A DNA stretch of 64,000 nucleotides from Oscillospiraceae bacterium (GTDB taxonomy: Bacteria > Bacillota > Clostridia > Oscillospirales > Oscillospiraceae), in assembly GCA_022799035.1 (NCBI GenBank), contig JAAWNQ010000003.1, positions 1-64,000 on the forward strand, in the 5' to 3' direction. Under the pieces are notes generated by a model, which was not told where the DNA came from, ran no database searches, and saw only the letters and a program-made list of their open reading frames with translations. The position numbers and the translations under genes were made by a program. Position 1 is the first letter of the stretch. Each line of letters opens with the position of its first letter. Below, one piece after another: positions 9,665-25,381 of the stretch.

Positions 9665-9693
9665 ACATTACATCATTTTGGAGGTAATCAACT

Positions 9694-10125
9694 ATGCTAA
9701 ATCGCATTATCCTTATGGGCCGTCTGGTCGCTGATCCCGACTTGAAAACCTTGGACAGCGGCACACCCGTGTGCAGCTTCCGCATTGCCTGTGACCGGGA
9801 TTTCAAAAATAAGGACACGGGCGAAAGAGACACTGATTTTGTCAACTGTGTGGCCTGGCGGAGTACGGCGGAGTTTGTCTCCAGATATTTTACAAAAGGC
9901 CGCATGATCGTGGTGGATGGCCGGCTTCAGGTACGGCCCTATACGGATCGGGATGGCAATAAACGTCAGGCGGTAGAGATCGTTGCCGGAAGCGTTTACT
10001 TTGGCGATTCCAAATCCAGGGGTGATGAGGACGATGAACCCCCTGCCTACCAGGCAGATGGGACGGACATCCCCGACAACTTTGATCCCAATTTGGATGA
10101 GGACGATGGTAATCTGCCGTTCTGA
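9694..10125 (+). CDS. ssb: Single-stranded DNA-binding protein
   Basis: A 143-residue SSB: OB-fold beginning MLNRIILMGRLVADPDLKTL, with the family block TDFVNCVAWRSTAEFVSRYFTKG and Y-x-D-R-D-G-N-K-R. It ends in an acidic tail finishing DDGNLPF, the partner-recruiting tip (usually D-D-x-I-P-F). It binds exposed single strands during replication or repair and fits the primase, Rad52 and clamp genes in the neighbouring operons. ATG at 9694 follows TTTGGAGGTAATC. It is unusual that SSB sits between the RavA-like and ViaA-like genes. Confidence 0.95.
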   Translation: MLNRIILMGRLVADPDLKTLDSGTPVCSFRIACDRDFKNKDTGERDTDFVNCVAWRSTAEFVSRYFTKGRMIVVDGRLQVRPYTDRDGNKRQAVEIVAGSVYFGDSKSRGDEDDEPPAYQADGTDIPDNFDPNLDEDDGNLPF

Positions 10126-10145
10126 TTGTCCCACTTAAACCGCAG

Positions 10146-10172
10146 GGCGGGAGGGCCGAGGCTCTCCCGCCT
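10146..10172 (+). other. Intercistronic GC hairpin after ssb
   Basis: GGCGGGAG pairs with CTCTCCCGCC in the gap between ssb and the next gene. No T run follows, so it is more likely an RNA-stability or processing element than a terminator. Confidence 0.5.
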
Positions 10173-10195
10173 TGTCATAGGAGGTAGTCAAATAA

Positions 10196-10441
10196 GTGAC
10201 GTCAAATTCCAAACCCATCTTTCCTGGTATCCGAGTGGTTTCGGAAGATCTCTATACCTTCATTGATCGGCTGGCTGGTGATATCGTCCTGGAGCCAGAC
10301 ATTTCATCTTGCGCCATGTGCGCCATGAGGCCGGGCTGCAAGCAGCGGGTCAACGCCCGGGTCTGCCAAAACGCCGTCAAAGCATGGCTCCTATCCAAAG
10401 CCGGTGAATATCTGACCCATAATTTTAGGAGGGCAAGTTAA
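10196..10441 (+). CDS. Small cysteine-containing protein (81 aa)
   Basis: No recognised family. A CAMCAMRPGC cluster and one further Cys (VCQNAV) suggest metal binding. GTG at 10196 is about 9 nt after AGGAGGTAG. It is immediately followed by, and touches, the next short gene (TAA-ATG with no gap), which indicates coupling within the RavA/ViaA operon. Confidence 0.6.
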   Translation: MTSNSKPIFPGIRVVSEDLYTFIDRLAGDIVLEPDISSCAMCAMRPGCKQRVNARVCQNAVKAWLLSKAGEYLTHNFRRAS

Positions 10442-10618
10442 ATGGAGAAATATTTTGCATACTTAGAGGAACTGCGGGAGTCCGGCGAGACAAATATGTA
10501 TGGAGCTGTCCCTTTCCTTCAGCGCCGCTTTGTTGAGCTCCAATTTGATCGGAAACGTGCCGCTGAGATTTTAGACGCCTGGATCAGAAGTTTTTCGGAG
10601 CGGGGTGAGGATGAGTGA
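10442..10618 (+). CDS. Very small protein (58 aa)
   Basis: The frame reads MEKYFAYLEELRESGETNMY, continues with GAVPFLQRRF, and ends SERGEDE. A single helix-rich domain is likely. ATG at 10442 directly abuts the previous stop, and TTTTAGGAGGGCAAGTTAA supplies the ribosome site. Its stop overlaps the GTG of the ViaA-like gene by 4 nt (GTGA). The tight packing on both sides is the main support that it is real; the function is unknown. Confidence 0.65.
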   Translation: MEKYFAYLEELRESGETNMYGAVPFLQRRFVELQFDRKRAAEILDAWIRSFSERGEDE

Positions 10619-12198
10619 GCAAACCCTTCCGCACCATTGAGGATGTTCTGCGCTCCCCATGGGCAGGCACACATTCCTCTGAAAAATCTGCCGGCATAGA
10701 CCGTGTGCTGCGCTCCACTAAGCTGGAGGACAGTATATATGCGGATGTGCGTGCCGAAGATGACTTCCTTACTCAAACGGAGCAGGAGGCAAAAGAAAAA
10801 CTCTCCTCCTTTCCCGCGCTGTCACAAGACATCTTTCAGTCCTTCTACTCCCTCTTCCCCCGCAAGCAGGACGAAGAGAAGCTGAGCGTTGCAGCCCGGA
10901 AGTTTAACGCCCCCATTCTGAATCACATCCAGCAGAGTGAGGACTTTCCCACCCTCAAATCCATTTGTGAAGGCCGAGAGTTGCCCGCCTACGAAGCGGC
11001 CTCCGAGTTTATCTCCCGAACCGCCCACGAGCTGGATACCCTGTTGACCGATCTGGGCGGGGAAAAGGGTGCGCTGAATACCCTGGAGAAGCTGGAGGAA
11101 GCTCAAGCCCAAGCACAGGCGGAGTTGGAAGGACTGTTGGAGCGGCTTCATAAGAGCAAAGAGGCAAATCCTCTGTTGGAGAAGAAAATCATAGATACCG
11201 CCAACCGTGCGGAAAGTAAGCAGCGTCAGGTGATGGCTGTAAGCAAGCTCGTTGACGCCAGCGCCAGCAAGAACGCCGAAAAGATCTCTGCCTTGGTTGG
11301 CCGGGCCGTCACCTCCGCTGCGGAAAAGGCGGAGGAAGTTCAGTCCATCATTGGCGCGTGGGGCGATGATCCCGGAGATTTCTCCCAGTGTGAGACCAAC
11401 GCGGAACTACTGACGTTGATCCGAAAAAGTGATACCCTAAAGGCCATTTCCAGGTATCTGGGCCGGTTTCGTGAGATCTTCGCAGAGGGTAAACGCAACG
11501 GCTATGCCTATGGCCGGGGTGAGACCTATTCTCTGGAGTCGGGGAATAATCTCTCCCGGGCTATCACTTCGGAGCTTGCTATGCTGGCCTCCAAACAGAC
11601 CCTTCCTCTTTTCCTGCGGAAATACCAGGCCAAGCAGCTCAAGCAATATCGCCGCCGGGAGCCGGTCTACAAGGGTATGGGGGATATCATCTGCTGTCTG
11701 GATGAGTCTACCTCTACCATAGGCGATCCTATCGCTTGGGGTAAAGCTGTGGCGCTGACCCTGCTGGAGATCGCCGCCGATAGTGGCCGAAAATTTGCCC
11801 TGATCCACTTTTCCGGCCCCGGCAGTTTTAAGACCGATCTGTTTCTCCCGGGAAAATACGGTTTGGAAGATAAGCTCCATGCCGCTGAGACCGTTCTAAA
11901 CGGCGGCACGGACTTTGCCACTCCTATGACTGAGGCTTTGCGGCTCATGGAGCAGGAAGAGTTTGAAAACGCCGATATCGTATTCCTCACCGATGGAGAG
12001 TGCGAGCTGTCCGCTGAGTATGTGAAGGCTCTGCAAACCCACCAGGAAGAGCGGAAATTCACCGTTACCGGCGTCCTGCTGGATGGCGGCAAGCCGGGAA
12101 TGCCCTTTAGCTTGGAGTCGTTTTGCCAGAATATCTACCGCACCTCTGAGTTGGTGGGAGATGAGCTGCTGCAAAAGATAGTGGGCCAGCGTATTTGA
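10615..12198 (+). CDS. ViaA-like VWA domain protein, partner of the RavA-type ATPase
   Basis: 527 residues. A long helical N-terminal region (with a coiled-coil stretch LEKLEEAQAQAQAELEGLLE at about 155-175) precedes a C-terminal von Willebrand A domain. Its metal-ion-dependent adhesion site is visible as D-E-S-T-S-T (about residue 363), then a Thr in GGTDFATP and the D of FLTDGECE. This arrangement matches ViaA, which binds RavA through its helical part. GTG at 10615 overlaps the preceding stop. It is the last gene of the operon begun by the leader at 7581. Confidence 0.8.
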   Translation: MSKPFRTIEDVLRSPWAGTHSSEKSAGIDRVLRSTKLEDSIYADVRAEDDFLTQTEQEAKEKLSSFPALSQDIFQSFYSLFPRKQDEEKLSVAARKFNAPILNHIQQSEDFPTLKSICEGRELPAYEAASEFISRTAHELDTLLTDLGGEKGALNTLEKLEEAQAQAQAELEGLLERLHKSKEANPLLEKKIIDTANRAESKQRQVMAVSKLVDASASKNAEKISALVGRAVTSAAEKAEEVQSIIGAWGDDPGDFSQCETNAELLTLIRKSDTLKAISRYLGRFREIFAEGKRNGYAYGRGETYSLESGNNLSRAITSELAMLASKQTLPLFLRKYQAKQLKQYRRREPVYKGMGDIICCLDESTSTIGDPIAWGKAVALTLLEIAADSGRKFALIHFSGPGSFKTDLFLPGKYGLEDKLHAAETVLNGGTDFATPMTEALRLMEQEEFENADIVFLTDGECELSAEYVKALQTHQEERKFTVTGVLLDGGKPGMPFSLESFCQNIYRTSELVGDELLQKIVGQRI

Positions 12199-13569: not shown

Positions 13570-13791
13570 CACCTATTCAACCCGGATATTCAACTGTAAA
13601 ATGGAACTGTATTTCAGGGCGGTGTAAATTAGGGCGGAGCATTGAAGGGAGGACGGAAAATGGGAGCTTAGTAGGCTCCATACCGCCGGATACGACCTGG
13701 AAAAATGAAAAAGGACACAAGAAAGACTGTAAGTACCCCAAGGGGGTCTTACGGTCTTTTTTTGTCCCCAAACACGAAAGGAGCAAATACC
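13570..13791 (+). promoter_or_regulatory. Conserved attenuator leader, copy 2 (upstream of the JAMM/E1/clamp operon)
   Basis: Second copy of the leader at 7581, with the same blocks in the same order but one fewer full AAATTAGGGCGGAG unit. Here the leader ORF starting at 13705 (also encoding TPRGSYGLF) is in frame with the JAMM gene. An AAAGGAG site 8 nt before ATG 13792 shows that the gene itself starts there. Confidence 0.7.
13724..13763 (+). terminator. Intrinsic terminator (attenuator) in leader copy 2
   Basis: 13724-13739 pairs with 13742-13757 (AGACTGTAAG / CTTACGGTCT and CCCC/GGGG over an AA loop), then seven T. It stands about 30 nt before the start codon, so transcription of the whole operon depends on reading through it. 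Confidence 0.8.
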
Positions 13792-15174
13792 ATGAGTGAA
13801 CAGTTCCCTTTTCAGAATTTTGCAGGTGAGAAGCTGGACATTGAAGCTATCTTTGGCGGTGCGGCACCAGACGGCGGGGGTAATCCCTTTCCTGCGGCGC
13901 CCCAGACAGAGGTAGCACCCCAGGTGGAGGTGACTGACCAACCTCCCACGGTGCCCCAGCCTACTCAGCCAACGGAGGCCATCCCGGCCCAAGAGCAGAC
14001 TCCGCCATCTATGCCACCTGCGGAGTCTGCACCTCCTGTCACCCAGCCTGTCACAGCGGAGCAGCCTATCCCAACGGCCTCCATGCCCACGGCAGAAAGT
14101 CCTCTCCAGATGGCCTTTGAAAACCAAATCATGGAGAACACCAAAAAGGGACTTTTTGAAAAGCCCCCTGTGTTCTCCTTCAAGGGAAATAAGGAGGACA
14201 TCGAGGACGCCTCTTTGACCTTTGAGGAGCTGCGTATCCAGAAGGCGGATACCTACCTTGACCTGGATGAAGGTAAGTGTGTTTCTTGGTCTGTGGATTA
14301 CTGTGGTATTCGTAAGGATATCAAAGATCCCAAGGGAACAACCATTGCCTCCATGAAGGAGATGATCGAGCAGTCCCCCGAGTTTTTGGCTGCGCTTAAA
14401 AATGCAAAAGGCAAAAATCCAGACTGTTTGGTGAAACCCAAAGTTTCCGAAAAACGGAAGGGCGTTCTTCCCCCGCTCAAGGGGCACTTTGCTACAGTGG
14501 ATGCGGCCCGAAACTCGGATAAGCGGATCTGCCTGATCCCTTCTTCCGATGGGCGTCTGTACGAGCTGCGGAAAACAGAAATCGGAGAGTTTGTCGCCCC
14601 CAAAAACAAGGTGACCGACTTTCAAGCGGTCAGAGCTGGGTTTGTCCCGGCTCTGCCGCTGATCCCCATGACCTTGATACGCCAGATTATTTCCTTTTTC
14701 CGCTCCGTTATGGGTGAAAAGGACTATGAAGCCTTTGCCATGATTTACTGGGACAAGCTGGAACAGCGGTTTTTTGCCTATGTACCTAAACAGATTGTGG
14801 CAAAGGAGGATGTGGTGGCAGATCTGTCTGATTGTCCCTACGATGATGAGACGCGATACATCCAATATGCGGATATCCATAGCCACAACAGTATGCGTGC
14901 GTTTTTTTCCGCAGAAGATGACCGGGACGAAAGAGGTACTGGGCTCTATTTTGTTGTCGGGAGACTGAATCATTTTCTCCCGGACATCAAGGCCCGGATC
15001 TCCTGCAACGGTTCTTTTGTGGTCATTGACCCACACCAGGTTATTGAGGGGTTGGAAGACAATTACCCCGCCGAATGGAATGCTTGTGTCACCATCAAGA
15101 AGGACAAAAAGGATAAGGTCCCTCCTGCTGAGGTTTCTTTGGAACACCCCGGGGAAACGGTGATAGCGGCATGA
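13792..15174 (+). CDS. JAMM/JAB isopeptidase-like protein, PRTRC-A relative
   Basis: 460 residues. Residues about 25-105 are a Pro/Gln-rich linker (repeated PP and PAEQP-type stretches). The C-terminal domain carries HSHN-SMRAFF-SAEDD (about residues 362-377), a match to the JAMM zinc motif H-[ST]-H-x-x6-S-x2-D with Asn in place of the usual Pro. The R-A-F-F-S-x-x-D-D-R-D context is that of PRTRC system protein A. JAMM enzymes remove ubiquitin-like tags. ATG at 13792 follows AAAGGAG. The stop overlaps the next gene (an E1) by 4 nt. The substrate is unknown; the long Pro-rich N-terminus is an elaboration compared with short PRTRC-A proteins. Confidence 0.8.
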   Translation: MSEQFPFQNFAGEKLDIEAIFGGAAPDGGGNPFPAAPQTEVAPQVEVTDQPPTVPQPTQPTEAIPAQEQTPPSMPPAESAPPVTQPVTAEQPIPTASMPTAESPLQMAFENQIMENTKKGLFEKPPVFSFKGNKEDIEDASLTFEELRIQKADTYLDLDEGKCVSWSVDYCGIRKDIKDPKGTTIASMKEMIEQSPEFLAALKNAKGKNPDCLVKPKVSEKRKGVLPPLKGHFATVDAARNSDKRICLIPSSDGRLYELRKTEIGEFVAPKNKVTDFQAVRAGFVPALPLIPMTLIRQIISFFRSVMGEKDYEAFAMIYWDKLEQRFFAYVPKQIVAKEDVVADLSDCPYDDETRYIQYADIHSHNSMRAFFSAEDDRDERGTGLYFVVGRLNHFLPDIKARISCNGSFVVIDPHQVIEGLEDNYPAEWNACVTIKKDKKDKVPPAEVSLEHPGETVIAA

Positions 15175-15935
15175 AATTTCCGTTGGATGTGCCGGTCAAA
15201 ATTGTGCAGCTCGGTGCCGGGGGCACTGGCGCCCACGCCGCCCCCCATCTATACCGGCTGCTATACTCGCTGGATCGGCCTGTACGCTATGTGCTCTGCG
15301 ATGGTGACAAGGTCGAACCCAAAAATTTGATCCGCCAGAACTTTGCTCCCATGGACTTGGAGGAAAACAAGGCAAAAGTGATCTCTGAAAGGTATTCCAC
15401 GGTTTTCGGGATGGAGACAGAGTATGTCTCCTCCTTTGTCGAGGATCTGGATACCTTGATGGAACTTATTACCCCAAACACTTGGGCAGAAAAACATTAT
15501 AGGTGGAATCACGTTTCTGAAATGGTGATCCTGCTTGGATGCGTTGATAACAACAAATCCCGGCAGCTCTGCCATCAGGCGTTTATGAAATCAAAGGATC
15601 TCATTTATATTGACAGCGGCAACGAAGAGATCACCGGGCAGATCGTTTGTGGTGTACGCAGAAATCATCACACCATGAGCAAACCTGTCGGCAGCGCATA
15701 TCCGGGTGTACTCAAAACAGAGGACAAATTTCCATCGGAGATGTCCTGTGCGGAAGCTGCGCAGGCCGATCCTCAGAGTATGGCGGCTAACATCACGGCC
15801 GCCACCGCCATGGTGGATATGGTTTATAACATCCTGGCCCACGGGGAATGTGTTACCCGCCAAACGATTTTCTCTACCAGAACGGTTCAAATGCAGACCG
15901 TAGTATCTAAGAGTCAAAGGAGGAAAGCCGCGTGA
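15171..15935 (+). CDS. E1/ThiF-like adenylating protein, PRTRC ThiF relative
   Basis: 254 residues with a Rossmann nucleotide-binding loop LGAGGTGAHAAP (about residues 13-24), the E1 signature CDGDKVEPKNLIRQNF (about 43-58) and GCVDNNKSR (about 123-131). E1/ThiF enzymes adenylate the C-terminus of a ubiquitin-like protein. No separate catalytic-cysteine domain is obvious, as in other PRTRC ThiF proteins. The start overlaps the JAMM stop (ATGA) and the stop overlaps the clamp start (GTGA), so JAMM, E1 and clamp are made in a coupled way. Distinguishing it from MoeB/ThiF of cofactor synthesis rests on this context. Confidence 0.85.
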   Translation: MKFPLDVPVKIVQLGAGGTGAHAAPHLYRLLYSLDRPVRYVLCDGDKVEPKNLIRQNFAPMDLEENKAKVISERYSTVFGMETEYVSSFVEDLDTLMELITPNTWAEKHYRWNHVSEMVILLGCVDNNKSRQLCHQAFMKSKDLIYIDSGNEEITGQIVCGVRRNHHTMSKPVGSAYPGVLKTEDKFPSEMSCAEAAQADPQSMAANITAATAMVDMVYNILAHGECVTRQTIFSTRTVQMQTVVSKSQRRKAA

Positions 15936-17041
15936 AAGCAACCGTGGACGCCAAAACCTTTTCCGCCGCTTTGAATAGCACTATGAACGCCATGAAACAC
16001 TCCAAAATTCCGATCCTGGAGTCTGTTCTGCTTCAGTTCGGTGGTGGAAAATGTGCTATGACAGCTACCGACATGGATTCCTGGCTCACAGTGGAGATCC
16101 CCGCGCAGGGTGACACCTTCGTTTGCTCCTTTTATCAAACTCGGGCAGCGGCCAAAACCTGCCGCCACTATGAAGGTTCTCTTACCATTGAAACTGTGGA
16201 TTCTGGTGAGGGCAGGAAGCAAAAACGCCAGATCCATCTATCATGCGGTTCCCGGAGTGCAACTCTCCCAGGGTTTTTGTCTGCGGAAAGCGAGGACTTT
16301 CCCCGTGCTCCCATAATGGAGGACGGCGAGACCTTCATGATAGACAGTGCTGCCTCTCTGTTGGAGCGAGTAAATCGGATCAAGTACGCCGTTCGGATGG
16401 ATCGGGATCATATGAACGCCACCCATACCTGCGTCCAGTTTGACCGGGATAAGGTGTTTTGTGTGGACGGATGCCGAGCCGCCTGTGATGCAGATCCTGG
16501 GTTTGTTGTCCCCAGGCCCTTCTTGATCTATCCTGAAGTTCTGGCCCATCTGAAGCTGTTTGGGCTGGAGCCTGTAACCGTTTGTGTGGGAGAAAGGTAC
16601 GTCCAATTTGCAGGAAAGGGGATCTCCCTTCTCTGTCATAGACAAGGGGTAGTGCCGTTTCCACTGGATCAGGCCCTCCCGAAAGAGTGCAAAGAGGAGT
16701 TCCGTGTCTCCCCGAAGGAATTTCTGCGGGAACTGGCCTATTTGAAGGAATTACTTGGTGATAAGCGCAGGCCCTTTCTGCGGCTTTGCGGAGAGGTGCT
16801 TTCTTTGGAGTCTGGTTCCTGGAGCGGCTGCACAACCATCCACACCGAGGGCGTAAGCACCATTGAGGTGGGCCTCAACCTTCACTACATGGCTGACGCT
16901 CTCAAACAGTTTGAGAAGGAGCCGTATGTTAAGTTGAAGATCTCTGGTACCTCCATGCCTATCATGATAGAAGCGGAGGGCCGAAGCGACTATGCTCTGG
17001 TTCAGCCTGTTCGGATGAGAGAAACCCGGGCTGCGGCATAG
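15932..17041 (+). CDS. dnaN: DNA polymerase III beta subunit (sliding clamp), second copy
   Basis: 369 residues. The N-terminus MKATVDAKTFSAALNSTMNA, then IPILESVLLQF, matches the opening of the clamp fold, and ATHTCVQFDRDKVFCVDGCR corresponds to the middle domain. It is clearly diverged from the first copy at 3417 (different lengths and few shared blocks), so the two are not a recent duplication. GTG at 15932 overlaps the E1 stop, and AAAGGAGGAAAGC supplies the ribosome site. No polymerase alpha or clamp loader is visible, so it would need host enzymes or act as a regulatory clamp. Confidence 0.75.
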   Translation: MKATVDAKTFSAALNSTMNAMKHSKIPILESVLLQFGGGKCAMTATDMDSWLTVEIPAQGDTFVCSFYQTRAAAKTCRHYEGSLTIETVDSGEGRKQKRQIHLSCGSRSATLPGFLSAESEDFPRAPIMEDGETFMIDSAASLLERVNRIKYAVRMDRDHMNATHTCVQFDRDKVFCVDGCRAACDADPGFVVPRPFLIYPEVLAHLKLFGLEPVTVCVGERYVQFAGKGISLLCHRQGVVPFPLDQALPKECKEEFRVSPKEFLRELAYLKELLGDKRRPFLRLCGEVLSLESGSWSGCTTIHTEGVSTIEVGLNLHYMADALKQFEKEPYVKLKISGTSMPIMIEAEGRSDYALVQPVRMRETRAAA

Positions 17042-17068
17042 AAAGAATTTGGATAAGGAGAAATCACG

Positions 17069-17794
17069 ATGAAAACTATCTATATCCCCAAAGGGGAAAC
17101 CGTTTGCTACGACCATCTCTATGCGGAGCGTATCGTTGTGAATGGATGCCTGCGTGTGGATCACAGCCTGGATGCCAAGGTTATCGGCGGTAAGGGGGTG
17201 ATCCACGCCGGAAAGGTGTCTGCCGACACGATCCATACCGACTATCTGGATGCCTGTTCGGTCATGTGTAAGCGTCTCTTTGCCAAGCGTGTGGACGCCC
17301 CGGAAGTTTTTGCCTCCGAGAGCATCACCGTGTCCGGCGTTCTTTCTGCTTGTTTCGCGAAAACACCCAAGCTGACGGTGGCTCTTTGCGAGGTAGAGGA
17401 GCTGGAAGCGCAGGAGACGGTCACGGTGCCTGCCAGACGCCAGAGTGTCTTGGGCGTCCTGCTGATCTCAACCATTCAGTCTGCTATGACCGCCATCTTT
17501 GCCCGATTCCGTAAGAACAGAGCGATGGATGCAGACTATGAGGTCGTCCTTCAGGATGAAAAGGAGTTGTTTGCTTCGGATGATTCGTCCGCTCCAGATA
17601 CCTCCTCTGCCGCAGATGCCGGTCCCACCCCCAGAACGGAGCCCCCGGTGGATGAAGAGCTGAATCGCTTTGTCAACCTCTTCAGGCTCTTGCGGGAAAG
17701 TGGTTATACTCTGCGGATCATTCCCGGCACGCCGGAGGCCAACGCTCCCGTATTCGATGTTGAGCAGGGTCGAATCATCCGTCCTGCCGCATAA
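17069..17794 (+). CDS. Bactofilin-like protein
   Basis: 241 residues. Residues about 15-115 form a regular short-turn beta-repeat (IVVNGCLRVD..., AKVIGGKGVIHAGKVSADTI...), as in bactofilins and other polymer-forming cytoskeletal proteins. A hydrophobic stretch VLGVLLISTIQSAMTAIF (about 131-148), an acidic Ser/Asp linker and a small C-terminal domain follow. Bactofilins polymerise into filaments at membranes. Here the gene sits inside a DNA-metabolism operon, 27 nt after the clamp, so a scaffolding or partition role is possible but unproven. ATG follows ATAAGGAGAAA. Confidence 0.6.
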   Translation: MKTIYIPKGETVCYDHLYAERIVVNGCLRVDHSLDAKVIGGKGVIHAGKVSADTIHTDYLDACSVMCKRLFAKRVDAPEVFASESITVSGVLSACFAKTPKLTVALCEVEELEAQETVTVPARRQSVLGVLLISTIQSAMTAIFARFRKNRAMDADYEVVLQDEKELFASDDSSAPDTSSAADAGPTPRTEPPVDEELNRFVNLFRLLRESGYTLRIIPGTPEANAPVFDVEQGRIIRPAA

Positions 17795-17798
17795 GGCT

Positions 17799-17999
17799 GT
17801 GCGGGAGATCGTCTATGTAGAGCGCGTGACAAATACAGCGGATGGCAAAACCATCCTCTCTGAGTATAAGTATCACGGGCTTTTCGAGTCAGACGGCAGC
17901 TTTCGGCTGTTGGGCTGCTGCGGAAAACGCTTCTCCTTCACGGGAGAGCCACCCGCAGGAACAGTGTCTACAAAAAAGGCAAGCAATAGAGCGGCATAA
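17799..17999 (+). CDS. Small beta-rich protein (66 aa)
   Basis: Starts at GTG 17799, 4 nt after the bactofilin stop with only AAGG as ribosome site, so it is probably coupled. The sequence alternates in a beta-strand-like way (REIVYVERVTNTADGKTILS, then EYKYHGLFES). It is the only very small protein near the E1 and JAMM genes, so it is worth testing as a ubiquitin-like partner, but it lacks a C-terminal Gly and no beta-grasp signature can be seen by eye. A hairpin follows at 18013. Confidence 0.45.
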   Translation: MREIVYVERVTNTADGKTILSEYKYHGLFESDGSFRLLGCCGKRFSFTGEPPAGTVSTKKASNRAA

Positions 18000-18012
18000 G
18001 CCGTCAAGCAGA

Positions 18013-18042
18013 AAGGACAGGGAATGGACATTCCCTGTCCTT
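18013..18042 (+). terminator. Hairpin, possible weak terminator
   Basis: AAGGACAGGGAAT pairs with ATTCCCTGTCCTT perfectly over a short loop. The following sequence TCTATATC is not a real T run, so partial termination or mRNA processing is more likely. Confidence 0.5.
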
Positions 18043-18070
18043 CTATATCTGAATTTAGGAGGCATTTTAT

Positions 18071-18523
18071 ATGTCTGTGAAATCGCAAGAAGCCAATATG
18101 CGTAAATTGGCCGACCTGTTGAGTCACGACCTCGGTTATATCTGGGGGAAACGTGAAGCCGGCCCTAATGGAGCCAAACGAACCTTTTTGAACGTGGGAC
18201 GCACCTTTCTGCGGGCTCTGGCCAAAGACCTGTGCCTGCGTGATTATAAGGTCACCTCCAACGCCGGTGGCATCGCCGTATCGGGAGACTGCACCTTGAT
18301 GGGCGTCTGGGATGGGGGCGGTATCTTCCTCAACCTTTCCCAGCCTGCTTGCGGAGGAGATCATGTAATTTGCTACCGCAGTATCCGACATTTGAAAGAC
18401 TATTCCGGCAGCGGCTATAACCACTGGCTGACCCGGAATTGCCTGGAAACCTTCTCCTATGAAAAACTTCTTTTTGCGTTATCCGCTTTGAGAAAGGAGC
18501 AAGGTTATGACCGGGCAGCATGA
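18071..18523 (+). CDS. Hypothetical protein (150 aa)
   Basis: No recognised family. Features seen: an N-terminal amphipathic region, V-G-R-T-F-L-R-A-L-A-K-D-L at about 42, and a beta-rich centre. ATG at 18071 follows TTTAGGAGGCATTTT. Its 3' end overlaps the methyltransferase start by 17 nt, so the two are probably cotranslated. Confidence 0.6.
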   Translation: MSVKSQEANMRKLADLLSHDLGYIWGKREAGPNGAKRTFLNVGRTFLRALAKDLCLRDYKVTSNAGGIAVSGDCTLMGVWDGGGIFLNLSQPACGGDHVICYRSIRHLKDYSGSGYNHWLTRNCLETFSYEKLLFALSALRKEQGYDRAA

Positions 18524-19919
18524 AATACCCTCAGAACGCTACTACGCTGTAGAGCGGCTGGGCGAGCTTCAACGGGATCTGAACCTGGGTATTGCGGCCA
18601 TGGTGATCCTGCGTGCCAAGGTGGAGAAATACCGCCATGAAGATCTATCCGCGGCAAGGGCGACTTATGATGAGCTTATGAACACCCGCCGCCACATGTT
18701 AAAGACCCTGGGTGATACCCGGCTGTGTTTATTGGAGGTCGAAGAATATCAAGCCGCCTATACAGCCGGACAGCTCTATGATGGGCTTTCCAGATTCGAT
18801 CTGATGAGTACAAACTACAAGCCGGTCTACGATGTCGTGTGTAGCTTTGCCGAAAGTCTGCCCATCAGCGGTACTACAACCAACGCCCGGGTCATCGGAC
18901 GGCTGATGAACAACGTAAAGATGGGCTACTATCCCACCGATCCCGGCAATATAGACCTGATCCTGCGTGGAATCCAGTTCCCGGAGGGAGTCACCACCAA
19001 TCTGTTAGACCCCTGCTGTGGCTGTGGGAAAGCCCTGCGTCAGATCGCCCAGGGAAATAATTGCTACGCCTACGGTGTGGAACTGGACGAATACCGGGCA
19101 GAGGAGGCCCAGTCCCGGCTCCACCGGGTAGGCTTCGGCAGTTTCTTTTTCAGCCGGGTGAGCCACGAGGCATTTCATCTTCTGTTTCTCAACCCACCCT
19201 ACCTGTCCGTTTTGAACCAGGGCGGCAGCAGAGCCAGGCACGAGAAGCGGTTTCTGATCGAAAGCCTGCCGGCCCTGACCTATGGGGGCCTGCTGGTCTA
19301 CGTGATCCCGTACTACCGCCTGACCCCGGACATTTGCCGCATCCTGGTGGATAACTTTGACGACCTCTCCGTCTGGCGCTTTACCGATGGGGAGTTTGGA
19401 AAGTTTAAGCAGGTCGCGGTTATGGGCAGACGGAAGCGCCGAGCGGATGAGCCCCAGGATACTCTGTGGCTGGAATGGTATGCCGTCCACCCGGAAAAGA
19501 TCCAACCTCTTACTGAGTTGACGGAGGATAGATATGCCCTCCCGGATACCCCATTGGAGGTCAAGATCTTCCAGGGTGAGCGGTTCAATCAAAAGGAGTT
19601 GGAGCGGGAGCTTCGTCATTCGGACAGTTTTGCTCAGCTTATGTCCCACAGTGAATTGGACAGCGGGGCCAAGCGTCCGCCTCTGCCTCTCTCCATCAGT
19701 CAGATCGGGCTGGTAGGAGGTTCTGGTATGATCAACGGCCTTATCCAGTGCGATCACCCCCATATCATCAAGGGGCGGATCGTCAAGGTAGTGCGGACCG
19801 AGGAGGAAGAACGCTACAACGCCAAAGGGTCATATATAGGCTCCGAAGTCAAAGAGACCATCACCAACAAGATGATTTTTAATATCCTTACCCCACAAGG
19901 GTTTAGGGCATTGACGTAA
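18507..19919 (+). CDS. DUF6094-type DNA methyltransferase-like protein
   Basis: 470 residues. A helical N-terminus is followed by a class I SAM-methyltransferase core: GYYPTDP, motif I LLDPCCGCGKAL (about 165-176), an acidic G-V-E-L-D after strand 2, and motif IV FLNPPY (about 227-232), the catalytic N-P-P-Y of amino-methylating DNA enzymes. It fits DUF6094 proteins of mobile elements. No restriction gene is adjacent, so a role in protecting or marking the element's own DNA is more likely than restriction-modification. ATG at 18507 follows GAAAGGAGCAAGG. Confidence 0.7.
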   Translation: MTGQHEIPSERYYAVERLGELQRDLNLGIAAMVILRAKVEKYRHEDLSAARATYDELMNTRRHMLKTLGDTRLCLLEVEEYQAAYTAGQLYDGLSRFDLMSTNYKPVYDVVCSFAESLPISGTTTNARVIGRLMNNVKMGYYPTDPGNIDLILRGIQFPEGVTTNLLDPCCGCGKALRQIAQGNNCYAYGVELDEYRAEEAQSRLHRVGFGSFFFSRVSHEAFHLLFLNPPYLSVLNQGGSRARHEKRFLIESLPALTYGGLLVYVIPYYRLTPDICRILVDNFDDLSVWRFTDGEFGKFKQVAVMGRRKRRADEPQDTLWLEWYAVHPEKIQPLTELTEDRYALPDTPLEVKIFQGERFNQKELERELRHSDSFAQLMSHSELDSGAKRPPLPLSISQIGLVGGSGMINGLIQCDHPHIIKGRIVKVVRTEEEERYNAKGSYIGSEVKETITNKMIFNILTPQGFRALT

Positions 19920-19931
19920 GGGAGGGTAAAC

Positions 19932-20231
19932 ATGTTTGAGTTTCAAGGGGAACGCTTTATCCAGCTACTCCATATGATATCCGAAAATGAACCTGTAGGG
20001 CAGTCATCCGTACACAGTTCATATTTGGAAAAGCATGTGTTTCAGCCTCTCCGAAAAACAGGGGGCGTAAAGCTCAGCGACCTTGACTGGTCTGCTTTTG
20101 GGATAGATGAGACTACTCCAGCCGGCTATTGGGCGCAATATGCCAAAGTCCGTATGGGCTGGTGCCAAGGTTTGGCTTATTCCCTTCAGAAGATAGCCTC
20201 CCTCCCCTGTGACACGAAAACATTTTTTTAG
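19932..20231 (+). CDS. Hypothetical protein (99 aa)
   Basis: No recognised family. A mixed alpha protein with a Trp/Tyr-rich middle (DLDWSAFGID...AGYWAQYAK). ATG at 19932 follows AAGGGAGGG and the gene is 12 nt from both neighbours, so it is part of the operon. Confidence 0.6.
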   Translation: MFEFQGERFIQLLHMISENEPVGQSSVHSSYLEKHVFQPLRKTGGVKLSDLDWSAFGIDETTPAGYWAQYAKVRMGWCQGLAYSLQKIASLPCDTKTFF

Positions 20232-20243
20232 GAGGAGGTCAAT

Positions 20244-20813
20244 GTGTACGATTATGAATACGAGGAGAGCATTCTGCTTGCGCTTCGCTTGCTCTCCTTT
20301 CTTCGAGAAGACCACCCAGAAACATTTACCACGTTGATCCAAGAAATAGAGGAACTTAATCTGGACAGTGCCTACGAATTGGCAGACTTATTTTTGATGG
20401 GCGCAGGTGGATTTTTGGATCTGGGCACGGCTGATGAGGAAGATAGCGAATTAAGTGTCCTTTACATTTCCCATCCCTCTATCAACCGTTTTCTGACGCT
20501 AAATGAAGCGTGCAAGACCATTGGAATGGTTACCCATGTAGAACAGGTACGCAAAAAGTTCCATGACATTGTGGAGTTTTATGCCACAGGTCTGACGTCC
20601 TCCGTTTATGGTATTGACATTTCTTTTGGCGCACACACCGCCCACATCCGACTCATTCTTTCTCCTGATTACTATAGTCCACTGGAATTTGCCAACTCAT
20701 TGATTGACATGCTGCTGTATATCAGGCAGGAAAATCAGAGATTGGAAGGCTTGCTGGAGGAGTCCAAGGCAACGGAGCCCGTTTTTGAACTTGCAGAACA
20801 GGAGGCGGCATAA
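20244..20813 (+). CDS. Hypothetical protein (189 aa)
   Basis: No recognised family. The protein is acidic with a helical N-terminal half, then a beta-rich segment (YGIDISFGAHTAHIRLIL) and a helical Glu-rich C-terminus. GTG at 20244 follows GGAGGAGG. Its stop touches the start of the E2-like gene (TAATG at 20811-20815), so it is coupled to it and is a candidate partner. Confidence 0.6.
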   Translation: MYDYEYEESILLALRLLSFLREDHPETFTTLIQEIEELNLDSAYELADLFLMGAGGFLDLGTADEEDSELSVLYISHPSINRFLTLNEACKTIGMVTHVEQVRKKFHDIVEFYATGLTSSVYGIDISFGAHTAHIRLILSPDYYSPLEFANSLIDMLLYIRQENQRLEGLLEESKATEPVFELAEQEAA

Positions 20814-21502
20814 TGACCGAGTTGATCGAAATGGAGAAGGAAAAATATGATACCGTCCTGCGGATCTCACCCTCTGGAAAGACCATAATTGTTGAGACCC
20901 ATAGACCGGGCGGGATCATCAGCTACAAGGAGATATCTCCCATAGATTTGTACTATGTGATAAATGGAAGCTATTCATCCAATATGCTATTAAGCAGTGG
21001 CTTCTTGCCGGAAAACTGTTTGCATGTCTCTGTCAGCACAGCGGAAAAGCATTTTGTCCTTTGGAACCCAGAACTGAGAGCTGATGTGACCTACCGGGAT
21101 ACGGAATATCAAAACTTCCCAATCCCGCGCATGGTCTTTGGGGTCAGGATGCTGGACAACGGCAAAATCGTAGAGTGTTCTATCGGCGTAGTAGCGGATG
21201 AAAAGCCAACGCCGGAAACCCAGATGTTTTGTTATCCTTTTTCCAATGTCCATAGCGATGGGCTGGTTTGTACCGGCAACAACAGTTTGCCCAGGTGCCG
21301 TAAGATATCGGCCTTGGCAAGCTTTCCACGTTATCTGTTGGGGCTGCCGGACAATGACGATATGTATAGCTGTCAAAATAACCGGCTTGATTTAGATCAC
21401 AGGGCGTTGATGGAACATCTGAAAGACAAAGAACCAGCCTATTACTACTCAGACATTTTGATCCCTTCCGGGAAGACACTAGACGATTTTATCAATAGAT
21501 AG
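20813..21502 (+). CDS. E2-like protein, PRTRC-B / Prok-E2 family D relative
   Basis: 229 residues. The block FPIPRMVFGVR...PTPETQMFCYPFSNV, then HSDGLVCTGNNSLP (about residues 145-160) and a terminal LIPSGKTLDD-F-I, follows PRTRC system protein B, which contains the prokaryotic E2 family D fold. The Cys in HSDGLVC is placed where a conjugating enzyme would hold its catalytic cysteine. With the E1 at 15171 and JAMM at 13792, this gives three enzymes of a ubiquitin-like pathway in one operon. ATG at 20813 overlaps the preceding stop. It could instead be a structural PRTRC component without conjugating activity. Confidence 0.7.
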   Translation: MTELIEMEKEKYDTVLRISPSGKTIIVETHRPGGIISYKEISPIDLYYVINGSYSSNMLLSSGFLPENCLHVSVSTAEKHFVLWNPELRADVTYRDTEYQNFPIPRMVFGVRMLDNGKIVECSIGVVADEKPTPETQMFCYPFSNVHSDGLVCTGNNSLPRCRKISALASFPRYLLGLPDNDDMYSCQNNRLDLDHRALMEHLKDKEPAYYYSDILIPSGKTLDDFINR

Positions 21503-21513
21503 AGGGTGAGTGC

Positions 21514-22440
21514 ATGAAATCAAAAACAGCCCAAGAGATATTTGCTGCATTGAAGCAGCCCTTTGCGCCGGAAGATCTGGAGTGGCGTCTGCAACACGTC
21601 AAAAAGGAAACGCCTTATGGAATTGCTGTCCCCTATGTGACCAATAGGGCCATCCAAAACCGCTTAGATGATGTGGTGGGTCCGGACAACTGGTACAACG
21701 AGTACAAACCCTGGCACCAGTCCGGGGAGAAGGCGTCCCAACTCTGCGGTATCTCCATCTACTTTGAGGAAACACAGCGGTGGGTCACCAAATGGGATGG
21801 CGCCGAGGACTCGGACATTGAACCTGTTAAGGGTGGCCTGTCCGACTCCATGAAGCGTGCCGCCGTCCAGTGGGGCATTGGCCGTATTCTCTACGAGATG
21901 GAGGCCATCTTTGTGGATGTGGAGCAGCGAGGCAAGACCTGGGTTATTCCCAAGAAGGAGCAATCCAAAATGGACAAAGCCTATTTGGAAATGCTCAAAA
22001 GAAAGGGCCTGACCCCAGCCGGTTCAGCAAGCCCTCAGCCGCAATCAAAACCGAGGCAGACGGCGGAAAGTCCCAAATCCAAACCGCAGTCCACGCCGCA
22101 AGATAAGGGGAAAACTTTACCCCCGGAGTCAAGGACTCCCGCCCCGAAGGCGACAGCGGACGCTCGCTCTCCCTCCCCCGCAAAGAACAAGCAGGAAGAG
22201 CCCATATATACTGTGGTCACTTCCCAGGTGCAGCCCGGGATCGAAACCCCTAAAACCCGCTTGATACTGGAAGCGCCGGATGGCAAACGCCTTTCTCCTG
22301 TCTATGTCCGGGGCGCCCATCCCGAATTGGCCGATGGCGTAGCTCTCACCAATGTGCGTCTTGTCTTGAAGAAAGAAGGCACTGTGGCGTTTTATATTTT
22401 AGCGGACTACCAAGTGGCACCCATCCAGGAGGCCGCCTGA
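21514..22440 (+). CDS. Rad52/Rad22-like single-strand annealing protein
   Basis: 308 residues. The N-terminal 165 (LKQPFAPEDLEWRLQHVKK, V-T-N-R-A-I-Q-N-R-L-D-D-V-V-G-x-x-N-W, and GLSDSMKRAAVQWGIGR) match the bacterial/phage Rad52-type annealing domain, with the VKGG-L-S-D-S-x-K-R-A core. A Pro/Lys-rich linker (about 170-240) and a small C-terminal beta domain follow. Such proteins anneal complementary single strands coated with SSB and promote recombination of phages and elements. ATG at 21514 follows ATAGAGGGTG. Confidence 0.85.
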   Translation: MKSKTAQEIFAALKQPFAPEDLEWRLQHVKKETPYGIAVPYVTNRAIQNRLDDVVGPDNWYNEYKPWHQSGEKASQLCGISIYFEETQRWVTKWDGAEDSDIEPVKGGLSDSMKRAAVQWGIGRILYEMEAIFVDVEQRGKTWVIPKKEQSKMDKAYLEMLKRKGLTPAGSASPQPQSKPRQTAESPKSKPQSTPQDKGKTLPPESRTPAPKATADARSPSPAKNKQEEPIYTVVTSQVQPGIETPKTRLILEAPDGKRLSPVYVRGAHPELADGVALTNVRLVLKKEGTVAFYILADYQVAPIQEAA

Positions 22441-22466: not shown

Positions 22467-24290
22467 ATGAAGAAACTTGAACAATTTCAAATCACAGAGA
22501 TGACCATTTCCGGCTTTAAGTGTTTTAGAGAGCCTACCACCTTTCGTTTTGGCCCGTTGACCATCATTACCGGGGGCAACGGCAGAGGAAAGTCCAGTAT
22601 TGCAGACGCTATCGCCTTTGCTATTACGGGCCTGCCTGTTTTTGGAGAGCGGGGGATCGACAAGCTCTATAATGAGTCCTCCCGCGACATTATGATCTCC
22701 ATGCGTCTTGTGGATGGAGACGGTAACGCTCATGAGTTGATCCGCACCCGCCGCAAGGATGAAATGACCATCACTTATGATGGCTGCAACATCAAGCAAC
22801 TGATCCTGTCGGATATGTTTGGCGAGCGGGATGTGTTTCTCTCTATCCTTAACCCCCTCTATTTCATTGAAGAACTGGGGGCCAAGGGAAAGAACCTACT
22901 GGAACGGTATTTGCCCGTCATCTCTCACGAGGAGATCCTGGCCCAACTCTCCGAGGCTACCCGTGCTGCTCTGGCGGAGGAAGAACTTGCTTCGCCGGAT
23001 CTCGCTTTGAAGAAACTCCGGGAAAATATACGCAACCTGGACGAAACCGTCATTTACCTTACCGGGCAAAAAGACCTGGCCAGCACCCACAGCAAGGATC
23101 AGGAAAATGCTGTGGGAGAGCTCACCCAGCGTCTGGCTGCCCTTCGTGGGGAATTGGACGCATTGGAAGAAAAGCGTTTTGCGGGAATGGATACCTCCAG
23201 TATGTCGGACAAGCTGGTGTCCTTGAGCCAGCGCTACGATGAGATGGCAAGAGATATGCACACGGAGGCCAGCTCCCGTGCCCGTTCCATTGCCGTTCTA
23301 AAGGAAAAGATCGCCCATCGGCAAGGTGAGGTGTATCAATCCAAATTCATCCCGGCATTGGCGGAAGCTGAGGCCAGGGTAAAGGAGCTTGCCATACAGT
23401 ACCAGCGAGAGGCAAACATCTATGCGGGTATGGTTCCCGGCTCTTCCTGCCCCACCTGCCACCGCCCCATCAGCGAGGAAAATCTCTCCGAAGTACAAAC
23501 GGCGGTCAAAGAAGTGATTGATGCCATTGTAACTGCCGGCCATGAGCAGCGCGCTCTTCTCCAGGAGCTTCAGGCAACTGAGCAGAAGGCCCAGACTACC
23601 TTTGAGCAATTCAGGGCTGACGACCTCCAGAAGTGGGGCAAGGAGCTTTCCACCTTGGAAAGCCAGGCCATGGCGGATGAAAATGACCCGCTGACCGCCC
23701 TTCGTTTTGAGATCCAGGAGTTGACCACTGATCTGGAGTATGGCCGTCTCTCCCAAACAGAGTATGACCGAATGAAGGAATGTCAGGAGGAGATCCGCCA
23801 GTGTGAGGCTGAGCAGGCCGCCCATCAGGCGGTCACAGATAAATCCGTGGCCGACTATGAGAGGGAGATCACCCAGATCCAGGAGCGTATTGCCGCGCTG
23901 AAATGTAAGATCGGTGATATCGCCCTCTATGTCAGCAAGCGGGCAGAACTGACCTTCGCCAATCTTAGGATGAATCGGGTGGCTATGTCTCTCTACGATG
24001 TGGTCAAGACCAGCGGCGAGGTCAAGGACACCTTCAAGTTCACCTATGATGGCCGGAGCTATGACCGCCTTTCGCTCTCGGAGAAAATTCGGGCAGGTAT
24101 GGAGGTGGCCGAGCTGATGAAACGGCTCACTGGCCGCAATTATCCTATCATTGTGGACAATATGGAGTCGGTGGACGATCTGGACAATGTCCATCCTACC
24201 GGGCAGGTCATTATGGCCCGGTGTGTCCGGGGAACGGAGTTGTCTGTTCAAGATGTAACTCCTTCTCAGCAGATACCTCAAGCAGCGTGA
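22467..24290 (+). CDS. SMC/Rad50-like ATPase with zinc hook
   Basis: 607 residues. The N-terminal ABC-type head has Walker A GGNGRGKSS (about 37-45) after ISGFKCFREPT. Coiled-coil arms surround SCPTCHRPIS (about 327-335), a Rad50-style zinc hook (CxxC). The C-terminal head has LSEKIRAGMEVAELM and a Walker-B-like region YPIIVDNMESVDD. It is shorter than SbcC/Rad50, and no Mre11/SbcD nuclease is next to it. It most likely tethers or processes DNA with the adjacent Rad52-like protein. ATG at 22467 follows AGAAAGGAG, and the primase gene follows after a 29-nt gap. Confidence 0.85.
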   Translation: MKKLEQFQITEMTISGFKCFREPTTFRFGPLTIITGGNGRGKSSIADAIAFAITGLPVFGERGIDKLYNESSRDIMISMRLVDGDGNAHELIRTRRKDEMTITYDGCNIKQLILSDMFGERDVFLSILNPLYFIEELGAKGKNLLERYLPVISHEEILAQLSEATRAALAEEELASPDLALKKLRENIRNLDETVIYLTGQKDLASTHSKDQENAVGELTQRLAALRGELDALEEKRFAGMDTSSMSDKLVSLSQRYDEMARDMHTEASSRARSIAVLKEKIAHRQGEVYQSKFIPALAEAEARVKELAIQYQREANIYAGMVPGSSCPTCHRPISEENLSEVQTAVKEVIDAIVTAGHEQRALLQELQATEQKAQTTFEQFRADDLQKWGKELSTLESQAMADENDPLTALRFEIQELTTDLEYGRLSQTEYDRMKECQEEIRQCEAEQAAHQAVTDKSVADYEREITQIQERIAALKCKIGDIALYVSKRAELTFANLRMNRVAMSLYDVVKTSGEVKDTFKFTYDGRSYDRLSLSEKIRAGMEVAELMKRLTGRNYPIIVDNMESVDDLDNVHPTGQVIMARCVRGTELSVQDVTPSQQIPQAA

Positions 24291-24319: not shown

Positions 24320-25381
24320 TTGGCAGCCAGGGTCTACGATAAGATCCCTATTGTGGATACCGCCAGACGGTGTGGGCTTGTCCTCGACTCCCGAACGCTC
24401 CGGCGTGAGGAAGTGGAGGCAAGCTGTCCCTTCTGCGGTGACCACGGGGTAGGAAAGTACCATTTAAGTCTCAACACGGTTACTGACCTATACCGCTGTA
24501 ATCTCTGCGGAGCCGGCGGTAACAGCGTGACCATGTACGCCCGGTTGATGGGCGTCAGCACCAAAGAGGCGTATCGGGCGTTAAAGGAGGAGGGCAAGGT
24601 CTATCCTATGCCCCACCAGCCAACGCCCCAAAAAACAGAACAGGAACCCATCCCCCTGGAGCAGAGACACCTCATGTACTCGGATATGCTGGAGCATTTG
24701 ACCCTCCTGCCTGCTCATGAGGACAATCTGCTGGAGCGGGGGCTATCCCGGGAACGAATCCAGCGCAACCAATACTGTAGTATGCCGGAAACGGAGCGGG
24801 GGCGGCGGCTTCTTGCCGCCCTCCTGCGTTCCTGCGGCCATGATCTGCTGGGCCTGCCGGGGTTTCGGACTTATTATGGAGAGTGGACGCTCAGTGGCCC
24901 CAACGGTTTTTTGATCCCCGTCCGCAATAAGGATGGGCTGATCCAGGGCCTGAAGATACGCTTGGATGACGGTGACTCAGACCGCAAATACCGCTGGCTC
25001 TCCAGTCGTGGACGACCTGGCGGGGCCCGGAGCTATTCCTGGATTCATGTTACAGGCGATACCACCAAAAAGCGGGCTTTCCTCACAGAAGGGCCGCTCA
25101 AAGGGGACGTGGCCAGCTTTCTGGCCCATGACGCTCTCTTTGTCTGCATCGGCGGCGTCAACGCTATCCACGGGTTAAAAGACACTCTTGTGGATCTCGG
25201 CGTCACAGAAGCAGTGGAGGCTATGGACATGGATCAGATGACCAACGAGCGAGTCCGCAAAGCCATCCGTGCCATTCGGCAGGAAGTCCAGTCGATCCGC
25301 GGTATCAAGTATTCTAAGTACACATGGAACCCGACCTACAAGGGGGTAGATGACTACTTTCTCAGTCGGGCAGCAATATAA
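24320..25381 (+). CDS. DNA primase, CHC2 zinc finger and Toprim-like
   Basis: 353 residues. The N-terminal zinc-binding domain reads CPFCGDHGVGKYHL...YRCNLCGAGGN (about residues 35-65), a CHC2-type primase finger. Further on, FLTEGPLKGDVASF (about 254) provides the Toprim glutamate, and the segment VEAMDMDQMTNE (about 298) the Toprim acidic pair. It would make RNA primers for lagging-strand or element replication. It is shorter than DnaG and lacks the helicase-binding C-terminal domain. TTG at 24320 follows AAAAGGAGGG. Confidence 0.85.
   Translation: MAARVYDKIPIVDTARRCGLVLDSRTLRREEVEASCPFCGDHGVGKYHLSLNTVTDLYRCNLCGAGGNSVTMYARLMGVSTKEAYRALKEEGKVYPMPHQPTPQKTEQEPIPLEQRHLMYSDMLEHLTLLPAHEDNLLERGLSRERIQRNQYCSMPETERGRRLLAALLRSCGHDLLGLPGFRTYYGEWTLSGPNGFLIPVRNKDGLIQGLKIRLDDGDSDRKYRWLSSRGRPGGARSYSWIHVTGDTTKKRAFLTEGPLKGDVASFLAHDALFVCIGGVNAIHGLKDTLVDLGVTEAVEAMDMDQMTNERVRKAIRAIRQEVQSIRGIKYSKYTWNPTYKGVDDYFLSRAAI

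Follow-up and report, generated by a model that had tools for sequence, protein, structure and literature searches.

The window described here comprises the first 64,000 nucleotides (nt) of a 118.5-kb contig (JAAWNQ010000003.1) from the 2.27-Mb draft genome of an Oscillospiraceae bacterium. It carries an operon which encodes the enzymes of a predicted ubiquitin-like protein (Ubl) conjugation system, a JAMM peptidase, an E1/ThiF-like protein and an E2-like protein, together with a sliding clamp, DnaN2. The operon lies on a large mobile element of a gut-type bacterium and has the look of a complete small ubiquitin system. We propose that these genes form a Firmicutes PRTRC-like (class 6d) Ubl conjugation system, located within a mobile-element replication and recombination operon and carrying its tag as a domain fused to the peptidase. 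We give this reading, including the mechanism presented below, a probability of about 0.62. The features on which it is based are the following:

13792-15174, forward strand: Ubl-JAMM fusion protein of 460 amino acids (aa), with a disordered Pro-rich N-terminus, Ubl, JAB-N and JAMM peptidase (PRTRC_A 1e-11, Prok-JAB 9e-5, AlphaFold2 (AF2) model; fusion kept in relatives)
14167-14463, forward strand: putative Ubl beta-grasp domain, aa 126-219, and tail to Lys223-Gly224, the proposed cleavage point (AF2, Foldseek, Lys-Gly in 15/15)
14479-15096, forward strand: JAB-N and JAMM metallopeptidase domain (Foldseek; H-S-H-x7-S-x2-D at 14878-14919)
15171-15935, forward strand: E1/ThiF-like adenylyltransferase with GxGGTG and invariant Cys193, codon 15747-15749 (ThiF 7e-11, PRTRC_ThiF 2.8e-25)
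15932-17041, forward strand: DnaN2, a divergent sliding clamp overlapping the E1 gene by 4 nt (TIGR00663 8e-11)
20813-21502, forward strand: E2-like protein, Prok-E2 family D/PRTRC_B-like, with invariant Asn145 and Cys153, Cys codon 21269-21271 (PF14460 5e-12)

Relatives were identified by searches with the E1 protein, which retrieved 19 further genomes of the same family among 400 (17 with full-length proteins of 53-70% identity and two with short, weak matches). Beyond this family, E1 relatives occur in five further families belonging to the order, on two IMG/VR contigs and on a 168-kb circular Subdoligranulum plasmid; a contig scan with E1 peptides found no relative. Pfam and NCBIfam matches were judged by the curated cut-offs and those falling below them are named as such.

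The Ubl-JAMM gene starts at the ATG at 13792, which is preceded by a Shine-Dalgarno sequence and provides the beginning, MSE..., common to the relatives. The gene does not begin at 13570 or 13705. The JAMM motif is perfect (H363-D376). Taken alone, the Prok-JAB match of the window protein is below cut-off, and Prok-JAB is found in 17/17 members of the family. All 17 also match PRTRC_A (TIGR03735; best 2.5e-14), the window protein scoring 44.8 bits where the cut-off is 101.8. The best solved structure for the JAMM domain in Foldseek is 8tyx, a bacterial Ubl-deubiquitinase (E=1.4e-6). The JAMM motif had been noted in a preliminary description of the DNA made from its sequence alone. Further matches include an Rpn11 homologue, AMSH and Cap3 (9ild).

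In the AF2 models of both the full protein and the isolated domain (mean pLDDT 82, pTM 0.69), aa 126-219 adopt the topology beta1-beta2-alpha1-beta3-beta4-alpha2-beta5. Foldseek searches with this domain returned mostly proteins of the ubiquitin superfold: Ubl domains of USPs, ubiquitin, PB1, RA, FERM, ISG15, FAT10 and Bacteroides fragilis ubiquitin. The E-values are modest (0.014 upward), and weight is placed on the ranking rather than on any single match. Profile comparison with hhalign gave a score of 25.1 against PRTRC_C (P about 0.001) over the beta1-alpha1 part, compared to at most 14.5 for other families of the operon and at most 16.8 for 200 column shuffles. PRTRC_C proteins were sought with a consensus which we composed ourselves, and only the database sequences retrieved with it are used as evidence. 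Comparison with Ubls from Bacilli gave 27.7 (P=1e-4; 150 shuffles, at most 19.0), with a shared motif F-x-Y ... D-P ... T-F-E-E-L-R ... D-F-P-E-L. Lys223-Gly224, at the end of the domain, is invariant in 15/15 proteins of the window family while its surroundings are variable. The predicted fold and the profile similarities together indicate that the domain fused N-terminally to JAMM is very probably a Ubl.

No separate Ubl of the PRTRC_C type was found: PF14454 did not exceed its cut-off in 17 genomes, where only noise was obtained, equally in control genomes. The preliminary description had identified a 66-aa product (17799-17999) as the only nearby candidate for the tag. This is a real gene, which aligns in the window and in loci L022, L023 and L028, with similar small open reading frames (ORFs) in L029 and L040. 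It was nevertheless rejected since its sequence has no beta-grasp pattern, ends in Ala-Ala and occurs sporadically; the predicted Ubl is instead the domain fused to JAMM. Three further candidates, the products g99, g189 and g150, were rejected as they gave no PRTRC_C-like signal in profile comparison.

Both fused and free forms of this Ubl are found on plasmids of Bacilli and Clostridioides together with homologous E1 and E2 proteins. In Planococcus, Halobacillus, Cytobacillus and Lysinibacillus it is fused to JAMM, with the junctions ...KAKAKG, ...SKKKG, ...AKKKG and ...AGSKG respectively. In Bacillus velezensis, B. licheniformis, B. halotolerans, Paenibacillus and Clostridioides it is free and stops exactly at the Gly (...GAKKG in three cases, ...APKKG and ...FKNKG). 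The flanks fetched for the free forms, about 9-15 kb long, contained no JAMM motif. One of the free Bacilli Ubls is annotated as MoaD/ThiS (ThiS E=4e-4). In Bacillus phage KLEB27-3 (L026, 9672-12720), an E2-like protein (YPFSN...CWG), a PRTRC_A-type JAMM without a fused Ubl and an E1 are encoded in a row.

A comparison of PRTRC_C proteins across Proteobacteria, cyanobacteria, Nitrospirota and Bacteroidota provides an indication of what the peptidase may do. PRTRC_C carries residues past the Lys-Gly in Cupriavidus, Paraburkholderia, Manganitrophus, Xanthomonas, Hydrogenophaga and Gloeothece, all of which have JAMM. Additional residues are absent in Azospira, Polaromonas, Methylomonas and Sphingomonas, which also have JAMM, and in Pseudomonas putida, P. 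aeruginosa, P. fluorescens pQBR55, Alteromonas, Pseudoalteromonas and Phocaeicola, where JAMM was not found in the stretch fetched. Among 21 separate Ubls, including the five free Firmicutes forms, JAMM accompanies 6/6 with post-Gly residues and 4/15 without (Fisher P=0.004, a value which is only indicative since the systems are related and kinship was not corrected for), while none of the 11 JAMM-less systems has such residues. This pattern is most simply read as maturation of the tag by JAMM. In the window protein it probably cleaves after Gly224, judging from these sequence patterns.

The E1 matches TIGR03736 (PRTRC_ThiF) over nearly its full length but scores 89 bits, the cut-off being 144.75. 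Within the Firmicutes set, its GxGGTG, Asp44/Asp46, Arg55 and Cys193 show little or no variation, and the invariance of Cys193 extends to Proteobacterial PRTRC_ThiF. For the E2, the match to PF14460 (Prok-E2_D) is above cut-off (46.3 bits against 25) and that to TIGR03737 (PRTRC_B; E=8.5e-11, 41.6 bits) is below it (131). Neither Asn145 nor Cys153 varies between phyla, Proteobacterial PRTRC_B included. A histidine following the Cys has been described for class 6d E2s (Iyer et al., PMC1779556) but is not conserved in the E2s aligned here. E1, E2, Ubl and JAMM belong to one operon and retain their catalytic residues, and it is likely that the released Ubl is conjugated through the E1 and E2. In L034 (10494-12733), two copies of the E2 gene enclose g99- and g189-like ORFs, which gives g99-g189-E2 the look of a movable module.

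The other members of the operon, together with a hairpin in its leader and another clamp gene which the element carries, are:

13713-13767, forward strand: hairpin and U-run in the JAMM leader, terminator or attenuator (RNA fold -34.7 kcal/mol, z -6.55, 0/200 shuffles equally stable)
17069-17794, forward strand: putative bactofilin-like (polymer-forming) protein (sequence pattern only; no Pfam match; homologues in 19 relatives)
17799-17999, forward strand: the 66-aa product (no family match)
18071-18523, forward strand: conserved 150-aa protein (45-60% identity in relatives; no family match)
18507-19919, forward strand: DUF6094 DNA methyltransferase-like protein with NPPY motif (PF19587 1.4e-178)
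19932-20231, forward strand: g99, a fast-evolving 99-aa protein 5' of E2 (aligns in 10 loci, 11-32% identity)
20244-20813, forward strand: g189, a fast-evolving 189-aa protein immediately 5' of E2 (aligns in 9 loci)
21514-22440, forward strand: Rad52/Rad22-type annealing protein (PF04098 2.8e-16)
22467-24290, forward strand: SMC/Rad50-like ATPase, AAA_23 (PF13476 1.4e-13)
24320-25381, forward strand: primase-like protein with DnaG zinc ribbon and DUF3854 (PF12965 4.5e-4 and PF01807 4e-3, both sub-cut-off)
26025-27002, forward strand: DUF6744 protein at the conserved end of the operon (PF20529 3.8e-110)
3417-4559, forward strand: DnaN1, upstream (PF02767 1e-8, PF00712 1.5e-8; also in L049 and L052)

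The hairpin stands just 5' of the JAMM start codon. The complete loci share the order Ubl/JAMM - E1 - (DnaN2) - bactofilin-like - (150 aa) - methyltransferase - (99 aa, 189 aa) - E2 - Rad52 - SMC - primase - DUF6744, and about 10 loci retain it even where identity has fallen to 40-60%. The JAMM and E1 genes overlap by 4 nt in 16/21 bacterial relatives measured, and E1 and DnaN2 do so in 13/13 with a clamp gene; these overlaps exceed chance. The genes named in the preliminary description are real and their 4-nt overlaps exact and conserved, with family matches for each protein (Prok-E2_D above and Prok-JAB, taken alone, below cut-off). The E2-like PRTRC-B protein which it placed in the operon lies 4 kb beyond, and of the methyltransferase, Rad52, SMC-like and primase proteins that it listed in the same gene run only the primase has a weak match. 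L035 (9500-14750) is apparently a decayed copy: its bactofilin-like gene continues in frame as the C-terminal half of SMC, the methyltransferase, E2 and Rad52 were not found, and JAMM, E1 and DnaN2 are retained.

The prediction of PRTRC/class 6d systems dates from 2006 and was based on sequences (Iyer et al. 2006, PMC1779556). We found no function for PRTRC, nor any mention of a Ubl-JAMM fusion, in the literature searched, a search which left aside subscription papers and preprints. The window system resembles PRTRC cassettes (TIGR03734-03738 and others) in its Prok-E2_D/PRTRC_B E2, its PRTRC_ThiF-like E1, its PRTRC_A-like JAMM with JAB-N, and in a small Ubl with a terminal Gly which is related to PRTRC_C. 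Both are located on large plasmids or elements, sometimes with adjacent dnaN and polymer-forming-protein genes; annotated polymer-forming proteins are encoded near the Cupriavidus and Hydrogenophaga PRTRC cassettes. In contrast to PRTRC, which has a free C protein (TIGR03738/PF14454) and the order C-F-B-A-ThiF, the window Ubl is fused, the order is JAMM-E1-(DnaN)-...-E2, the genes lie within a Rad52/SMC/primase/methyltransferase operon and the NCBIfam matches are all below the equivalog cut-offs. For the PRTRC ParB (TIGR03734) there were only ordinary sub-cut-off ParB matches, none of them on this contig in the genome of the window. PRTRC E and F had no NCBIfam match among the operon proteins (13705-21499), and g99 and g189 stand in the place of F without detectable similarity to it. 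Given this different order and the lack of ParB, E, F and a separate C, we class the system not as PRTRC proper but as a Firmicutes variant. Of the preliminary description, the PRTRC-like E1/E2/JAMM set, its place in a DNA-replication operon and its coupling to a clamp gene are borne out, and the candidate for the tag is not; on its sequence relationships the system is a divergent, rewired Firmicutes relative of PRTRC (Iyer class 6d).

The Bacilli plasmid loci are also among the closest systems. They share homologous E1 and E2 proteins, a Ubl-JAMM fusion in four cases, adjacent Rad52 and dnaN in three, and two small genes 5' of E2, of similar size to g99 and g189 and in the same position. They differ in that some have a free Ubl with no JAMM detected, in their order (Rad52-dnaN-x-x-E2-UblJAMM-E1) and in that no DUF6094 methyltransferase was seen.

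In the mechanism we propose, the tag would be made as an inactive Ubl-JAMM precursor, and JAMM would cut after the Lys-Gly, freeing a Ubl with a C-terminal Gly; it may also strip the tag from substrates. The E1 would then adenylate the Ubl and load it via Cys193, and the E2-like protein would take it on Cys153 and pass it to the element's own DNA-machinery proteins, with the fast-evolving g99 and g189 as candidate adaptors. DnaN2, where present, would be a co-regulated partner, either as a substrate or as a platform bringing the E2 to the fork. The domain identities, the fusion, the invariant Lys-Gly, the catalytic residues, the operon and the linkage were computed, and from them we infer cleavage, conjugation, substrates and role. 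That the substrates are among the element's DNA proteins appears to us an even chance.

Several observations weigh against this proposal. All the Foldseek E-values of the Ubl domain fail a threshold of 0.001, its similarity to PRTRC_C is local (36 columns) and the tag ends in a single Gly, not Gly-Gly. The clamp, moreover, is present in 14/22 close loci (the window included) and missing from 8/22, occurs in 0/6 assessable loci of other families which retain Ubl-JAMM and E1, and has no invariant lysine in the DnaN2 alignment. It might also be that the fused Ubl is a permanent regulatory or recruiting domain acting on JAMM in cis, with the E1 and E2 conjugating a different molecule or taking part in sulfur transfer. 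Many eukaryotic deubiquitinases do have fixed Ubl domains, the DUSP-UBL regions of USP15 and USP11 are among the top Foldseek matches, and ThiF-like E1s, as is generally known, often serve sulfur carriers. However, in Bacilli systems which have the same E1 and E2 and no JAMM in the fetched flanks, this Ubl occurs as a free protein that stops exactly at the Gly, the Lys-Gly of the junction is invariant despite its variable surroundings, and no other Ubl gene was found with PF14454 in 17 genomes; we therefore regard a fixed domain as rather unlikely.

A second alternative is that the operon is a clamp-modification module acting specifically on DnaN2 or on the clamp of the host, like PCNA ubiquitination. 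The 4-nt coupling of E1 and DnaN2 in every relative with both is in its favour, as are dnaN or dnaX genes beside related systems of Bacilli and Proteobacteria in other gene orders. Rad52-dnaN-x-x-E2-(Ubl-JAMM)-E1 is found in Planococcus, Halobacillus and Cytobacillus (in Planococcus with a group II intron gene, ltrA, between E2 and Ubl-JAMM); dnaN precedes PRTRC_E-C in Azospira and ParB in Pseudoalteromonas, and lies about 4 kb past ThiF in P. putida and P. aeruginosa, the distance being within about 5 kb in all four. In Lysinibacillus, the gene after E1 is that of the clamp loader, dnaX. In all, dnaN is nearby in 7 of 26 annotated plasmid loci and dnaX in one (flanks of 6-15 kb; the sample is slightly biased, Planococcus having been chosen as it occurs in both match lists), compared to 422 of 72,556 plasmid records (about 0.6%) with any DnaN-like gene. 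Rad52 and the DUF3854 primase also recur beside related systems. From these gene neighbourhoods the tie to replication and recombination is real and extends beyond the window, without showing the clamp to be the substrate.

Against a dedicated clamp module are the many loci with an intact Ubl-JAMM-E1 core and no clamp gene, the lack of an invariant lysine, and the possibility that a self-replicating element carries dnaN for itself, DnaN1 lying 12 kb upstream. In the loci of other families the methyltransferase gene is found 3' of E1, directly or after one small ORF, and four changes of clamp content are needed on the E1 tree (three forced by well-supported branches). Because it comes and goes among loci, the clamp counts as optional in the operon and DnaN2, on gene content, is an associated but not obligatory partner. 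The resemblance to PCNA ubiquitination (Rad6/Rad18) is the genetic linkage of ubiquitin-type enzymes to a sliding clamp; unlike PCNA, the window clamp is not obligatory and has no conserved acceptor lysine, and no E3 was found. We consider the clamp-modification module unlikely, and the clamp a doubtful main substrate. It is similarly improbable that a self-maturing Ubl-JAMM tag modifies the clamp or clamp loader and so controls replication or recombination of large mobile elements, as a bacterial counterpart of PCNA ubiquitination which several phyla would have tied to the clamp with differing gene orders.

An anti-phage defence function, like that of type II CBASS Cap2/Cap3 or other Ubl defence operons, is considerably less probable. 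These share the logic of E1, E2 and JAMM, the JAMM domain resembles 8tyx and Cap3 (9ild), and PADLOC gave matches to its E1-E2 and mad2 methyltransferase models. The matches are weak, cover shared superfamilies and indicate no specific system; there is no CD-NTase or other defence partner, effector or sensor to be seen here, E1 and E2 are separate genes and the neighbours are replication and recombination genes. Finally, the operon might be a chance assortment of genes without joint function. Large elements do accumulate genes, and the E1 tree calls for at least 3-4 changes in the presence of the clamp, but such an assortment is very improbable given the synteny, with order and overlaps kept in about 10 loci.

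The proposed Ubl conjugation system would name the missing tag of the Firmicutes form, with a precise site (after Gly224) and a reason for the presence of JAMM, and a tie of the system to Rad52, the clamp and its loader that spans several phyla, so that the function of the PRTRC/class 6d family becomes testable. If correct, trypsin would leave a single-Gly remnant on modified lysines, which standard di-Gly enrichment would miss.

Many proteins of the element end in Ala-Ala. Among ORFs of at least 100 aa this is so for 9/26 in the window element (2600-28100) and 47/172 in the elements of relatives (L022, L027, L030, L033, L034, L036-L040 and L049/L029), compared to 3/344 on the G291 chromosome and 0/62 in the remainder of the window contig (P about 2e-9). 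The proteins concerned are unrelated (E1, DnaN1, DnaN2, bactofilin-like, 150-aa, 189-aa, Rad52, SMC, DUF6744 and others) and the Ala-Ala codons differ, so selection acts on the protein. A search for a tmRNA whose tag could be compared with these tails gave no convincing match in the draft genome; the tails resemble a C-degron of the SsrA/ClpXP type.

Upstream of the operon, at 8321-12198, co-directional genes conserved with the element encode a MoxR AAA+ ATPase, an SSB and a von Willebrand A protein; the MoxR and von Willebrand A proteins are possibly a chaperone pair. At the left end of the element (907-2745) lies a gene for a group II intron-type reverse transcriptase.

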